Shown here: one piece after another, positions 16,883 through 22,101 of the stretch | Numbering within the stretch: position 1 is the first letter of the stretch | How the letters are laid out: each line of letters begins with the position of its first letter | Assembly (NCBI GenBank): GCA_947498025.1 | Contig: CANMJR010000025.1 | Coordinates: 1-42,554, forward strand | Reading direction: 5' to 3' | DNA: 42,554 bases | From: Helicobacteraceae bacterium | GTDB lineage: Bacteria > Campylobacterota > Campylobacteria > Campylobacterales > Sulfurimonadaceae | Made by a program: the position numbers and the translations under genes | The notes under the pieces: model-generated | Databases searched by the model: none | Seen by the model: only the letters and a program-made list of their open reading frames with translations | What the model was told of the DNA's origin: nothing

Positions 16883-17998
16883 ATGGAAATATTACTAGAA
16901 GAGTTTTATAAAACAGATATTTATTTAGAAAAATTTCATTACAGAAAGGCATTTCTTGAAGAACCTATTTATAACAGTGATAATATAAATAAAAATAGGG
17001 TTATTCTTTCGGCAAAAAGCTACCAAATAAATGGAATTACTCAAAGCGGAAAAACGAAGCTGATTAAAAACTATCTTTTGTCACTCAAAAAAAGCTCCTA
17101 CCTCTATATTGACTGCAGCGATATTAGAATAAATAGAGAGGAGCTAAACAGAACTCTTGCAAACTTTTGTAACGAAAATAAAATAGAGGTACTTGCCCTC
17201 GATAACTATACTAAAGAGATAGAGTTTGTAAATGTATCTCAACTAATTATAAGCTCGCAAACTCATCTTGATATAGATTCTTTGGAATCATTCTGGCTCT
17301 ATCCGCTTGATTATGAGGAGTTTTTGGCATATGAACATAAATATGACTCGAGTGCTTTAAATCACTTCTTCAAGCTTGGAGGGTTCCCATCCATGCACAA
17401 AATTCATTCAGATGAGAAAACATTATACATACAAAAAGCACTCAGATACGCCCTTGATGAAACGGAATTTGATGTCATCTGCTTTTGTGCAAAAATGATG
17501 TCGCAAAAAATCTCTCCCTTTACAATTTATGAAAGACTTAAAAGCAGTAGAAAAATATCAAAAGACAAACTCTATAAATCTTATGAAAATTTAGTTGAAA
17601 AAAAATATATTCATTTGCTAGAGAAGGTTGACTATCCCAAGGCTACAAAAAAACTCTACCTCTGTGACATCTCCCTAAAAACAGCACTTACTATTGACAA
17701 ACATTTTGGGCGTCTTTTTGAGAATATGATATATCTTGAGTTGTTAAAGGCAAACAGAGTCTGCTATTATGATGACGGGGTTGATTTTTATCTTCCGGAT
17801 ACTGAGGAGATTGTGCTTTGCATGCCTTTTACGGATGAGAGGGCACTTTTTAAAAAAATGGAGCAGATTGAGGCATTTATCTTTAGTTACCATGTAAAAA
17901 AAATTACGGCAGTAACTATGAACCATGAGGGAAGGATTTCTCATCCACTCTCAAAAGTAGAGATGATTCCCTTTGATTTATGGGCATTAGGAGATTGA
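16883..17998 (+). CDS. AAA_14/DUF4143-type ATP-binding protein
   Basis: This 371-residue protein resembles the archaeal-type AAA ATPase family with a DUF4143-like C-terminal half. The P-loop is NGITQSGKTKLIKNYLL (about residues 50-66). Further family features are FWLYPLDYEEFLAYEH, KLGGFPSMHKI and the LYLCDISLKTAL region followed by FGRLFENMIYLELL. The Walker B is weak (LALDNYT). The function of the family is not settled. The gene stands alone, divergent from the S10 operon, with a TTAGGAG ribosome-binding site. Confidence 0.7.
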   Translation: MEILLEEFYKTDIYLEKFHYRKAFLEEPIYNSDNINKNRVILSAKSYQINGITQSGKTKLIKNYLLSLKKSSYLYIDCSDIRINREELNRTLANFCNENKIEVLALDNYTKEIEFVNVSQLIISSQTHLDIDSLESFWLYPLDYEEFLAYEHKYDSSALNHFFKLGGFPSMHKIHSDEKTLYIQKALRYALDETEFDVICFCAKMMSQKISPFTIYERLKSSRKISKDKLYKSYENLVEKKYIHLLEKVDYPKATKKLYLCDISLKTALTIDKHFGRLFENMIYLELLKANRVCYYDDGVDFYLPDTEEIVLCMPFTDERALFKKMEQIEAFIFSYHVKKITAVTMNHEGRISHPLSKVEMIPFDLWALGD

Positions 17999-18080: not shown

Positions 18081-19391
18081 ATGTTTTTTTCAAGCAAAAA
18101 CGATAACCATAAGACAAAAGAGTTAGAGGATACAATTGAATCTCTCCAAAAGGAGTTGGATTTTTACAAAGAGGCTGCAACTTTTTCTCAAGAAGAGATG
18201 CTAGTTGCATTTGATAGCAAGGGGGAATTTAAATTTCAAAACGAAAAGGCATCTATTGCTATAAAAAATTCGGATGCTCTCTCTGCCGAGCTCAAAAAGG
18301 GCGGCAATGTAGTTAAGCTGAATGATTGCACCGGTAAGGTTGTGTCGCGTAGAACCAAAGACGGTACGATGCTCTACAGAATAACTAAGACCGACATGAG
18401 AGATACAAGAGACAGTAATATTTTAACTCTTCACCAAAATGCTATTACAACAGCTTTAGCTGACACGCAAAAAACTTTTTTACAGATGCTTGATGAGTTA
18501 AAAGTAATGAAGAGTGAATCTGTATCTATTGCCGATGAGTCTAAGCAGGGTCTCATATTAATTGAGCAGTCTGAACATGCCATGGATTTGCTAAGCCAGA
18601 ATATGGAAGAAAATATGCAGGGCATGTCTTCACTCAATCAGAGAAGCGGTGAAATATCTACGGTTATAGCGCTTATTCAAGGCATCGCAGACCAGACAAA
18701 TCTACTTGCTCTCAATGCCGCTATTGAGGCCGCAAGAGCCGGTGAACATGGAAGAGGTTTTGCCGTTGTTGCAGATGAAGTACGCAAACTTGCAGAAAAA
18801 ACAGGAACTGCCACAAAAGATATCTCCTTGGTTGTCAAAGCTATGCAGCAGGAGACAAATCAGGCAGAGACGAACACAACCGAAGTAAACTCAATTGTAC
18901 TAGAGACAAAAGAGAAGATAGAAGATTTAAATATTAAAATTAAATCGTTTGAAGCAAACGCCTCTCGCAGCCAGTATGAGGTGGAACATATCAGCGATAA
19001 AATTTTTACCTCTTTGGCAAAGATTGACCATGTTATCTATAAGCATAATGTATATGCTCTTATCTTCGGCGAAGAGAATAGCTTTAAGTCAACAGCTCAC
19101 ACCGAGTGTCGTCTTGGAAAATGGTACACTCAGGGAGTAGGTAAAGAGAACTTCTCAAACATGCCATCCTATCCTAAACTTGATGCTCCGCATGCAATTG
19201 TTCATAATCAGGCAAATCTGCTTGCAAGTGAGTGCGGCGGCGACAAAGTTTTATGCTCAAAAGAGATTATAGAAGAGCGAATCAATGCCATAGAAGTCGC
19301 TAGCGGTGATGTGTTTAAATATCTTGATGCACTCGTAGAAGAGAGAGCGAATGAAATCATGCACAAAGCTGCAAAAAATCTATTCAAATAG
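18081..19391 (+). CDS. Soluble chemoreceptor with C-terminal zinc-binding (CZB) domain, TlpD-like
   Basis: A cytoplasmic methyl-accepting chemotaxis protein of 436 residues without membrane segments. Order: coiled coil (about 10-35), short PAS-like region (35-115), signalling domain with the hairpin tip around [20 protein letters not shown] (207-226) and the CheW/CheA-contact segment, then a CZB domain. The CZB zinc ligands are visible: H317, C343 in [14 protein letters not shown]371 and H375. CZB receptors such as Helicobacter TlpD respond to oxidants, hypochlorite or zinc. AAAGGG precedes the start with 9-nt spacing. A receiver gene follows after 10 bases, suggesting one transcript and a common pathway. 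Confidence 0.9.
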
Positions 19392-19401
19392 GAGTATTAC
19401 A

Positions 19402-19776
19402 ATGAGCCAAACACAAAAAACAGTAGTGATTATAGATGATGAGAATGATATTTTGCTGATGCTAGAAAAATATCTTACGCGTGAGTGCGGTTATAGAGTT
19501 CAAACATTTAACAATCCGGTAATAGCTATCACTTCTCTTCCTAAAGAGACAGATTTAATACTGCTCGATATTATGATGCCGCAGATGAACGGCTTGGATG
19601 CACTTCCTAAACTGCTCGAAAAAAATCCAAAAACAAAAGTGCTTATGATGACGGCTTACTCTACACTTGATAAAGTTCTTAACGCACACAGACATGGTGC
19701 CAACGATTATGTCATGAAGCCATTCTCTTCACTCAATGCTCTTGGCAAAAAAATAGAAGAAGTTTTAGCAAAATAG
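19402..19776 (+). CDS. Single-domain response regulator (CheY-like)
   Basis: A receiver domain with no output domain, 124 residues starting at the ATG behind AGGAG. The acidic pair is D12-D13, the phosphoacceptor is D56 in LILLDIMMP, the switch threonine is T84 in MMTAYS and the conserved lysine is K106 in VMKPF. It stands directly between the CZB chemoreceptor and the hybrid kinase and ends exactly where that gene starts, so it is most likely phosphorylated by the neighbouring kinase or passes phosphate in this cassette. It could instead act on the flagellar motor; the sequence alone does not tell. Confidence 0.92.
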   Translation: MSQTQKTVVIIDDENDILLMLEKYLTRECGYRVQTFNNPVIAITSLPKETDLILLDIMMPQMNGLDALPKLLEKNPKTKVLMMTAYSTLDKVLNAHRHGANDYVMKPFSSLNALGKKIEEVLAK

Positions 19777-21363
19777 ATGAATTCAAAAGAGATATCTATT
19801 TTATTTGTTGAAGATGATGAAGAGGTTAGAGTTGAAATATCTAACTTTTTGGAGAAGCAATCTTTCAAAAATATCTATATTGCAAAAGATGGCAGAGAGG
19901 GATTGAAAAAATACTATAAATATAAACCCGACATTGTGCTGACAGACTTGACTATGCCTATTTTAAATGGGCTTGAGATGTCAAGGGAGATTAAAAAATC
20001 CGATGTAACCACCCCAATACTTTTAATAACATCTCATTTTGAAAGAGAGATAACTGAAACAATCGTTGACATAGGCATAGATGCTTCCCTCTTTAAGCCA
20101 ATCTCTTTTTCAAGATTAGAAAAAATCTTAGATAAGTATATTAACCGTATTCTACAGCAAAGAAAATTCCAAAAAGAGCATAAACTTTTAGAGGAATACA
20201 AGGGCGCAATAGATGTGAGTGCCTCTGTTACAAAGACAGACATTCATGGTGTGATAACCTATGTAAATGACGCATTCTGTAGCATGTCCGGCTACTCCAG
20301 AGAAGAGCTAATCGGAAGAAAACATAATATTGTAAAACATCCGGATACGGAGATAAGCACATACATGGATATGTGGAAAACTATAATAAACAAAAAAGTG
20401 TGGCAGGGCAGGATAAAAAATCTTAAAAAAAGTGGTGAAACATTCTACGAATACTCTGTTATTGTTCCCATTTTGAATGAAGAGAATGAGATAGAGGAGT
20501 TTATAGCTCTGAGACAAGATATTACAGACCTGTTTAATCAGGAACAATATCTAAAAAAACGGATAAAAGAAGAGGTGAATAAAAATCTTAAACATCATAG
20601 AGAGCGAGAGGATGCACGACTCCTAGAAGAGAAATTTTCGACCATTGGAAAAATGGCAGCCGGAATTACGCATGAGATAAATACCCCTCTTACCTATGTC
20701 AGAGGAAACTTAGAGATGATGATACAAGATATTAATAAGCTCGATGAGAGCATTAAACAAAAAGTATATCTACAAGAGGATAGTAAAACTATTCTTGATG
20801 GAGTCAATAGAATCGCTTCTATCGTGGAATCTATGCGAGAGATGGCATCGCAAACAAACGAGCTTCCGCAACCCGGTAATATCTACTCCTCCTTAATAAC
20901 GGCACTCACGCTTTCCAACAACAAAGCAAAGTTTATCTCCAATATATTTATTCAAGATGAGCTATTTAAAATTGGTATGGATAAAGATAGTTACAGCTTT
21001 ATGGCACCCATTCAAAAACAGAGGATAGAGCAAGTTTTTATTATTATCATAAACAATGCTCTTGATGTGCTAAAACTCACAAAAAACTTTGAGGAGAGGT
21101 TTCTTAAAATCATCATAAAAGAGAGTGATACGTTCATACTCGTTAGCTTTCAAGATAATGGCGGCGGAATTGATGAGGCGATGCTTTCAAAAATATTTGC
21201 TCCATTTCAAAGCAATAAAGAGGAGGGAGGAATGGGCATCGGTCTAAATGTTGCAAAACGAATCGTTGATGACCATGGCGGGAAAATAAATCCTTCTAAC
21301 TTCGAGGATGGAGCACTTTTTCAAGTCTATCTTCCTAAAAACATTCATAAGAGTAAAAAATAA
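19777..21363 (+). CDS. REC-PAS-histidine kinase (hybrid sensor, cytoplasmic)
   Basis: The 528 residues have no membrane segment. An N-terminal receiver (1-125) carries D57 in VLTDLTMP and K107. An Aer-like PAS domain follows (about 142-255; HGVITYVNDAFCSMSGYSRE). A coiled linker leads to a dimerisation domain with H299 in AAGITHEINTPL, and the ATPase domain has N-box FIIIINNALD, G1 DNGGGI and G2 GMGIGL. The PAS type suggests FAD or redox sensing by analogy. The start directly abuts the receiver gene's stop with no clear ribosome-binding site, so translation is probably coupled. rnhB begins 2 bases after its stop. Confidence 0.9.
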   Translation: MNSKEISILFVEDDEEVRVEISNFLEKQSFKNIYIAKDGREGLKKYYKYKPDIVLTDLTMPILNGLEMSREIKKSDVTTPILLITSHFEREITETIVDIGIDASLFKPISFSRLEKILDKYINRILQQRKFQKEHKLLEEYKGAIDVSASVTKTDIHGVITYVNDAFCSMSGYSREELIGRKHNIVKHPDTEISTYMDMWKTIINKKVWQGRIKNLKKSGETFYEYSVIVPILNEENEIEEFIALRQDITDLFNQEQYLKKRIKEEVNKNLKHHREREDARLLEEKFSTIGKMAAGITHEINTPLTYVRGNLEMMIQDINKLDESIKQKVYLQEDSKTILDGVNRIASIVESMREMASQTNELPQPGNIYSSLITALTLSNNKAKFISNIFIQDELFKIGMDKDSYSFMAPIQKQRIEQVFIIIINNALDVLKLTKNFEERFLKIIIKESDTFILVSFQDNGGGIDEAMLSKIFAPFQSNKEEGGMGIGLNVAKRIVDDHGGKINPSNFEDGALFQVYLPKNIHKSKK

Positions 21364-21365
21364 GT

Positions 21366-21914
21366 ATGTTGTGCGGGATAGACGAAGCAGGAAGAGGTCC
21401 AATCGCCGGAGATTTGGTCATTGCCGGATGTATTTTAAATACATGCGTTGACGGATTGAATGACTCAAAAAAGTTGAGTGAGAAAAGAAGAGAGCTTCTC
21501 TATGAAATAATTATTCAAAATTCAAAGTACCACATAGTTCAGTTCTCTCCGAGTGAGATAGATACCCTTGGAATTTCAACATGCCTCAAGAGAGGATTGA
21601 CTGAGATTATGAAAAATCTCACATGTGAAAATTACCTCTTTGACGGAAACTCCGCTTATGGCGTAAAAGGGTTAGAAACGATGATAAAAGCGGATGGTAA
21701 GGTGCAGGAGGTCAGTGCCGCATCCATTTTGGCAAAAGTCACACATGACAGAAATATAATAGAATCAGCCAAAAAATATCCGGAGTATGGGTTTGAAAAG
21801 CATAAAGGGTATGGAACTGCCCTGCATGTGGAGATGATAAAGAGATATGGCTATTGCGAAATTCACAGAAGAAGTTATAAGATAAAAGAGCTGAGAGAAC
21901 CGACACTATTTTAA
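21366..21914 (+). CDS. rnhB: Ribonuclease HII
   Basis: RNase HII cuts RNA in RNA/DNA hybrids and starts removal of misincorporated ribonucleotides. The 182-residue protein has the type II signature DEAGRG near the N-terminus (residues 5-10), a central aspartate in YLFDGN and an acidic position in ILAKVTHDR. It is near the short end of the family length and complete. It sits 2 bases behind the kinase gene on the same strand, so it may be read from that transcript. A dispersed repeat begins 2 bases after its stop. Confidence 0.95.
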   Translation: MLCGIDEAGRGPIAGDLVIAGCILNTCVDGLNDSKKLSEKRRELLYEIIIQNSKYHIVQFSPSEIDTLGISTCLKRGLTEIMKNLTCENYLFDGNSAYGVKGLETMIKADGKVQEVSAASILAKVTHDRNIIESAKKYPEYGFEKHKGYGTALHVEMIKRYGYCEIHRRSYKIKELREPTLF

Positions 21915-21990: not shown

Positions 21991-22101
21991 AAAACAAGAG
22001 AATCGCTTTTCGCATAGCGAAAATGTTTCTTTAGAAAAAACTCTGTTTTTTGAGAATAATAAGGTTGTTACGCGCTTTTTTATGGGGTAGTTAAAAAGTT
22101 G
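21991..22101. other. Hairpin-rich convergent gap between rnhB and dapB
   Basis: TTTTCGC (22007-22013) pairs perfectly with GCGAAAA (22017-22023). AAAAAAC (22035-22041) pairs with GTTTTTT (22045-22051) and could terminate either convergent unit. GTTACGC (22067-22073) repeats the first bases of the dispersed repeat at 21921-21927. No gene is seen. Confidence 0.6.

Follow-up and report, generated by a model that had tools for sequence, protein, structure and literature searches.

Why would a cytosolic chemoreceptor be encoded in one row with a lone receiver and a histidine kinase, with neither CheA nor CheW alongside? This question is posed by a contig of 42,554 nucleotides from a Helicobacteraceae bacterium (CANMJR010000025.1, assembly GCA_947498025.1), the whole of which we call the window, and in which three genes follow one another on the forward strand, as do all features described below. 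The first (18081-19391, ATG start at 18081) encodes a 436-aa chemoreceptor of the TlpD clade with a CZB domain, the second (19402-19776) a receiver of 124 aa with phosphoacceptor D56 and Response_reg as its only Pfam domain, and the third (19777-21363) a 528-aa kinase with Pfam domains Response_reg, PAS, HisKA and HATPase_c. Receptor and receiver genes are separated by 10 nt, receiver and kinase genes by 0 nt. Sequence and Pfam agree with the coordinates and gaps that an earlier note on this DNA had given for the three genes, and with its remark that CheA and CheW are missing alongside: none of the genome's 17 CheW-domain and 5 CheA matches lies on the window's contig (C25), and the trio is not a chemosensory gene cluster of the CheA type, with CheA and CheW in the cluster. 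The same genome holds 38 matches to the receptor (E ≤ 0.001). Judged from sequence, we consider it an even call that kinase and receiver form a dedicated two-component pair that is coupled to, and modulates, a receptor of TlpD type. We establish here its conservation and co-occurrence, the swapping of its sensors, covariation centred on the receiver, a receptor tail confined to receiver-linked receptors and intact catalytic residues.

Our comparisons cover sampled genomes within one order, drawn from the window's own family (f1) and from families f2, f7, f10 and f13; we infer that f2 is Helicobacter-like from open reading frames of 433 aa and gene context, and that f7 is Arcobacter-like from gene content and published features. 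Among 121 genomes of the window's family, 38 encode the lone receiver (E ≤ 1e-25), at 40 places in all, and each of the 38 has at least one copy next to a CZB receptor. The receptor (E ≤ 1e-75) occurs at 42 places in 40 genomes, and 38 of these places directly adjoin the receiver. Receptor and receiver also occur together in 24 more genomes from three other families, and across the class the receiver profile matches in 32 of 298 genomes, spread over 12 of 58 genera and four families. When the window proteins were searched by tblastn against 80 of the 574 unspecific receiver loci listed, no trio was found, only one receptor match confined to the hairpin and six weak kinase matches; plasmids gave no receiver match at 1e-20.

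Of 59 receptor-receiver neighbourhoods (35 from f1, the window included, and 24 from f7, f10 and f13), 56 also contain, next to the pair and in the same orientation, an orthologous kinase of the core family with an HE[IL]NTP box. It lies downstream of the pair in 40 neighbourhoods and upstream of it in 16, every one of these from genus g14; the kinase was seen in f1, f7 and f10, and not in the sole f13 genome. The three exceptions are a contig end (L069), a locus with another kinase (L150) and one with an unrelated kinase on the opposite strand (L159). The trio's conservation is thus far beyond chance, and the association has outlived rearrangement; its absence from relatives, which the earlier note had named as grounds for dropping the idea, is not what these genomes display.

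The kinase core is dedicated to this module, whereas its sensory part is exchanged between lineages. Of 30 trio genomes, 28 match the window's core (residues 289-528; E ≤ 1e-25), whereas none of 14 non-trio genomes does. Of its 29 places, 28 are the trio locus and the last, in G011, lies beside a receiver paralogue, so that all 29 have an adjoining receiver. As expected of a cognate pair, an intact HisKA/HATPase kinase and a receiver are encoded side by side, and the two are co-inherited, both by these counts and by partial correlations of 0.81 and 0.61 (see below). Pairs missing one partner also occur: G011 and G030 have receivers without the receptor that adjoin kinases instead, and the receptor-receiver pairs at L150 and L159 lack this kinase, their genomes having no core match. 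The receptor-less receiver-kinase pairs (L100:3998-5547 and L098:4103-5379) involve paralogues of the trio receiver.

Kinases of the window and of close relatives have a REC-PAS sensory part. Elsewhere it comprises three or two PAS domains after hydrophobic N-termini that by eye are apparently membrane-spanning (L067 and L068), one PAS (L070), a receiver domain without PAS (L147) or dCache plus PAS (L153), and the L066 kinase, at 243 aa, has no sensor domain at all. In g14, the kinases carry a PAS and an N-terminal region like a receiver without its aspartate; the look of a degenerate receiver (e.g. L071:3173-5080) was noted by eye, and Pfam gave no receiver hit there. At L095, the acidic pair is degenerate. 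A further, kinase-like protein is inserted between receiver and kinase in 11 of the 14 f7 loci; an N or G2 motif is found in none of the 11 and an Aer-type PAS signature in eight, and the one at L157 still scores HATPase_c.

The PAS domain of the window's kinase (20227-20529) is of Aer type: its best PDB matches are 3ewk (1e-30), Aer 8dik (3e-21), 31cj and 2gj3, and it has KHPD where Aer has RHPD. We take 3ewk to be MmoS and 2gj3 to be NifL, and the PAS domains of all these entries, Aer (8dik, 31cj) among them, presumably bind flavin adenine dinucleotide. The window's PAS is therefore probably of the flavin type, which makes redox input plausible for the clade of the window. Because sensors vary among orthologous kinases, many of which carry other sensors or none, redox input is not a common feature of the module, and the earlier suggestion that receptor and kinase share a redox signal is weak, even though this PAS matches flavin-type domains.

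How the three proteins vary together identifies the receiver as the link between the other two. For this mirror-tree analysis, pairwise distances were compared with rplB regressed out, using 30 genomes, or 28 after setting aside G235, which has another kinase, and G159, which has a HAMP-type receptor. Across 30 genomes, the correlations were 0.73 for receptor-receiver and 0.61 for receiver-kinase (each reached in 0 of 5000 permutations) and 0.32 for receptor-kinase (reached in 160 of 5000). Across 28 genomes they were 0.81 for receiver-kinase, 0.71 for receptor-receiver and 0.53 for receptor-kinase; with the third protein also controlled, receiver-kinase (0.73) and receptor-receiver (0.56) remain, and receptor-kinase falls to -0.11. 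Receptor and kinase thus cease to covary once the receiver is accounted for, in line with the linking role that the earlier note had assigned to it and with the existence of receiver-kinase and receptor-receiver pairs that each lack the third partner. Linkage alone can give correlation, but it does not easily give such a conditional pattern.

The receiver retains D12, D13, D56, T84 and K106, the equivalents of the D-D pair, D57, T87 and K109 of CheY. The kinase likewise has H299 within THEINTPLT as well as its N and G2 boxes, and the receptor its ligands H317, C343, H371 and H375, so that zinc ligands, phosphoacceptors and kinase boxes are intact as first described. The most conserved helix of the receiver is alpha4 (residues 86-97, YSTLDKVLxxH): across 59 receivers its entropy averages 0.48 bits, whereas the remaining helices lie at 1.23-1.65. 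Two contacts for FliM are replaced in the same 59 sequences, W58 by I57 (95%) and K91 by T88 (98%), and K119 has counterparts at K116/K117; the contact list is that given in PMC9321776, with positions matched by spacing from D56, T84 and K106. Owing to the loss of W58 and K91, binding of this receiver to the motor appears unlikely. The predicted fold resembles many receivers (Spo0F, CheY and OmpR types) and is uninformative as to type.

The rival explanation that survives best, itself doubtful in our judgement, makes the receiver an auxiliary CheY that is phosphorylated by CheA (and also by the kinase) and serves as a phosphate sink or as a competitor of the motor CheY, beside an ordinary array receptor that it adjoins for co-expression only. 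All but one of the 62 trio genomes encode CheA (61), the receiver keeps Y103 and T84, a receiver of this kind has been classed as a CheY (CheYm, PMC9321776), and a phosphate-sink role has been proposed for the extra CheYs of A. butzleri (PMC2147049). Against such a role, the receiver is passed on together with a kinase core of its own and their distances follow each other (0.81 in 28 genomes, 0.61 in 30), the FliM contacts W58 and K91 are replaced, and a pure sink would have no obvious need for so conserved an alpha4.

The receptor is a cytosolic CZB chemoreceptor of TlpD type by domain order, zinc site and tree grouping, as the earlier note had it. Pfam places MCPsignal at residues 172-305 and CZB at 317-379, corresponding to the signalling hairpin at 18594-18995, whose kinase-control tip is intact, and to the zinc site at 19029-19217. 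The three histidines and one cysteine of this site are invariant in all 32 rows of alignment A4, and the tip residues are invariant in alignment A2 (13 rows) and mostly so in A4. Pfam detects neither a HAMP nor a membrane domain, although no dedicated predictor of membrane segments was run. An AlphaFold2 model consists of long helices with a PAS-like start; residues 40-103 (18198-18389) look PAS-like by their predicted order of strands and helices, with block confidence (predicted local distance difference test) of 74-83 for residues 41-100 and 59 for 101-110. Foldseek and VIA-align searches with the model were dominated by coiled coils, mostly unrelated, and returned no fold match for the PAS-like part. 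A quick tree of 75 rows was built without 22 of the 59 trio rows and without 6 of the 44 receiver-less ones, namely 2 duplicate loci and 4 divergent rows. There the window's receptor falls together with the full-length TlpD-like receptors of f2 and four receiver-less relatives, apart from 21 other CZB receptors (Shimodaira-Hasegawa-like approximate likelihood ratio test, SH-aLRT, 99).

Receptors linked to a receiver share a C-terminal tail, M427-x2-A430-x3-L434-F435 (19359-19385 in the window). At least three of these four residues are present in 57 of 59 receiver-linked receptors and in 0 of 44 receiver-less CZB rows, one of which has a single tail residue and none more. The 44 rows represent 42 distinct loci and include 13 TlpD-like receptors of f2; the tail was scored in aligned columns 427-435, and a plain regular expression also fits the end of CZB in 13 of the 44. 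The receiver-linked receptors L147, L068 and L149 were omitted from one receptor comparison. The four closest receiver-less relatives either end before the tail or have other sequence there. In the best tree they fall inside the trio clade, with receiver and tail both gone (long branches, SH-aLRT 87-89), which suggests that the two were lost jointly. The tail is thus a candidate docking site for the receiver.

These patterns also bear on the idea that no functional link exists, an old operon having been held together by linkage and transferred as a block, with a tail that serves polar localisation only. The proteins of f10, whose rplB is 77-78% identical to the window's, are closer to the window's in all three cases than those of g14 (rplB 87-90%); because all three conflict with rplB alike, the module was probably moved or duplicated as a block, and the tail could be a mere clade marker. 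We nevertheless find this explanation improbable, given that the kinase switches sides and its sensor domains vary while the three cores stay together in f1, f7 and f10, and that four relatives nested in the trio clade are without both receiver and tail.

Does the receptor then work with CheA? CheA went unmatched in a single trio genome, G100, an assembly of 140 contigs at 93% completeness. The count of 61 in 62 indicates compatibility with a CheA array, not dependence on it, and together with the intact tip it is consistent with a receptor working through CheA and CheW. With the TlpD grouping added, we favour a receptor that sits in the CheA array and is tuned by the receiver; the pathway apart from the flagellar array that the earlier note had considered finds no support. 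We regard as least probable that the receptor directly controls the adjacent kinase as its sensor subunit, with the receiver as output and without CheA: the contig free of CheA and CheW, the L066 kinase (243 aa), so nearly sensorless that it would need an outside sensor, and the f7 kinase-like proteins without N and G2 motifs (11 of 14 loci) speak for it, but the receptor-kinase value of -0.11 beyond the receiver (28 genomes), the intact hairpin tip, the grouping with TlpD-like receptors and the status of G100 speak against it.

For a two-component pair that modulates the receptor, we propose the following course. The kinase, through its exchangeable sensor (in the window, a receiver domain and a probable flavin PAS), would phosphorylate D56 of the lone receiver. 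The receiver would then work on the receptor through its alpha4 face, the probable site being the C-terminal helix M-x2-A-x3-LF, in a manner comparable to the binding of the FliM peptide by CheY. Docking would alter the control that the zinc- and perhaps thiol-sensing receptor exerts on the CheA array, or its recruitment into that array. This specific form, in which a dedicated C-terminal helix of the TlpD-type receptor is the dock for the phosphorylated receiver, which thereby gates the receptor's assembly or kinase control, is more tentative than the existence of a modulating pair, and we rate it as possible.

Several points weigh against modulation of the receptor by the pair. Because the three genes share one locus, their adjacency and mirror-tree signals are in part a product of joint inheritance; two of the correlations fall when the two atypical loci are included (receiver-kinase 0.61 and receptor-kinase 0.32 in 30 genomes), the receiver-controlled value covers 28 genomes only, and species history rests on the single marker rplB. 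The search for the kinase core scored at most 63 first-look candidates per genome. Two of the 59 loci, L150 and L159, pair with another or an unrelated kinase, and there another kinase, CheA included, may feed the receiver. The entropy of alpha4 was compared within one receiver family only. Tail and receiver differ together in only one or two independent tree contrasts, the receiver-linked receptor L147, which is of HAMP type with a CZB below Pfam's cut-off, has no tail, and that of L068 is shortened by an in-frame TAG.

The TAG at L068 (G005:C40) stands about 58 codons before the end of an otherwise conserved gene; sequencing error, decay or recoding are possible. Trio receptors possess, besides the zinc ligand C343, three almost invariant cysteines (57-58 of 59; C83 in 58). 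C83 (codon 18327-18329) lies in the PAS-like domain, whereas C385 (19233-19235) and C392 (19254-19256) come after the zinc site, and a thiol switch may exist here. We rejected them as a receiver-linked trait: close receiver-less relatives also have them (three, four and four of four), so that they are clade markers. The same genome encodes other CZB receptors (L003, L004 and L005, on contigs C29, C61 and C76) with a small gene of 159-176 aa directly upstream. These small proteins match about 97 residues of the trio kinase, presumably its PAS, at 30-35%, and we take the arrangement to resemble CetB-CetA pairs.

As to expression, an AGGAG ribosome-binding site of the receiver gene (19390-19394, by direct reading) overlaps the receptor stop. 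The gene that follows, rnhB (ribonuclease HII by Pfam and NCBIfam, 21366-21914), is outside the module and begins 2 nt after the kinase gene; a terminator-like hairpin stands 3' of it at 22003-22023 (consensus scan: 7 sites in the region against 3.0 in shuffles). Receptor, receiver and kinase are therefore likely to form one transcript, with rnhB probably co-transcribed. Among the neighbourhoods compared for this, rnhB adjoins the trio at 12 of the 14 g1/g16 loci and nowhere else. An AAA_14/DUF4143-type ATPase gene (16883-17998) lies upstream in the window and has the same distribution (12 of 14 g1/g16 loci, no other locus). At the f7 locus L145, according to a domain scan, receptor, receiver, kinase-like protein and kinase are preceded by an OmpR-type regulator, a kinase and an HI0933 flavoprotein and followed by a YmdB-like phosphoesterase; by gene sizes and order, L146, L148, L152, L157 and L163 have a similar larger cluster.

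Chemotaxis receptors and two-component kinases are usually viewed as separate inputs, and the module suggests a kinase pathway plugged into a receptor. If so, redox or energy state sensed elsewhere could retune a TlpD-type receptor via the lone receiver, a route into chemotaxis that would bypass the receptor's ligand-binding domain, with interchangeable kinase sensors and a docking tail built in. The tail, the alpha4 face and a kinase tolerant of sensor swaps make this coupling directly testable.

How does the module compare with known systems? TlpD of H. pylori and the window's receptor are alike in length (433 and 436 aa), zinc site, extent of CZB and hairpin, PAS-like N-terminus and tree group, as far as accounts of TlpD describe these (PMC12871147, PMC13001251, PMC4820699); the N-terminus of TlpD holds a PAS that most orthologues outside Helicobacter are reported to lack (PMC12871147). 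The 13 TlpD-like receptors of f2 differ in having no receiver gene downstream, in lacking the tail, C83 and C385 (each 0 of 13) and in having C392 in only 5 of 13. According to the truncation experiments in PMC13001251, removing the last 45 residues of TlpD does not abolish its two-hybrid binding to CheW and CheV, yet inside the cell the truncated protein is spread diffusely, loses function and meets the CheVs but not CheW; these residues are required for polar localisation, which involves a further partner. The C-terminal end of the receptor is therefore known to matter, and the receiver is a concrete candidate for what a CZB receptor C-terminus can bind, which is of relevance to H. pylori TlpD.

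A published precedent for the receptor-receiver pair is in Arcobacter, where a CheY gene adjoins a chemoreceptor gene; its product, CheYm, has the Y106-T84 pair and lacks W58, K91 and K119 (PMC9321776). Like the window's receiver, it is a lone CheY-like protein beside a chemoreceptor gene without W58 and K91, and we infer that CheYm is the f7 receiver of our analysis. That paper names the pair in Arcobacter, and its main text contains no occurrence of "histidine kinase". In A. butzleri, AB0453-AB0455 is one of three sensor/regulator pairs with an extra sensor or regulator gene, a set for which the passage describing it proposes no function (PMC2147049). Most f7 trio loci similarly have receiver, kinase-like protein and kinase in a row, and from gene order and approximate map position our guess is that AB0453-AB0455 is such a locus. 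Redox sensing by CZB, the partners of TlpD and CheO are covered in PMC8262984, PMC4820699 and PMC9665402, respectively.

In the open-access literature searched (listings, abstract openings and selected passages), we found no description of the receptor-receiver-kinase module, of a kinase partner or of the tail. The novelty that the earlier note had claimed for the exact trio stands within that literature, while the receptor-CheY part of it is already in print as CheYm (PMC9321776). We set aside as a precedent Caulobacter HmrABCX, which is described as a hybrid kinase with phosphotransfer proteins.

Two comparisons help to place the module mechanistically. CheV is an adaptor that joins CheW to a receiver domain, whose phosphorylation adjusts the coupling between receptor and kinase; here, by contrast, the receiver is a separate protein without CheW and with its own kinase other than CheA. 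Relative to PAS kinases of the Aer, NifL and MmoS type, the PAS domain is similar, but the probable partner in this module is a lone receiver tied to a chemoreceptor.

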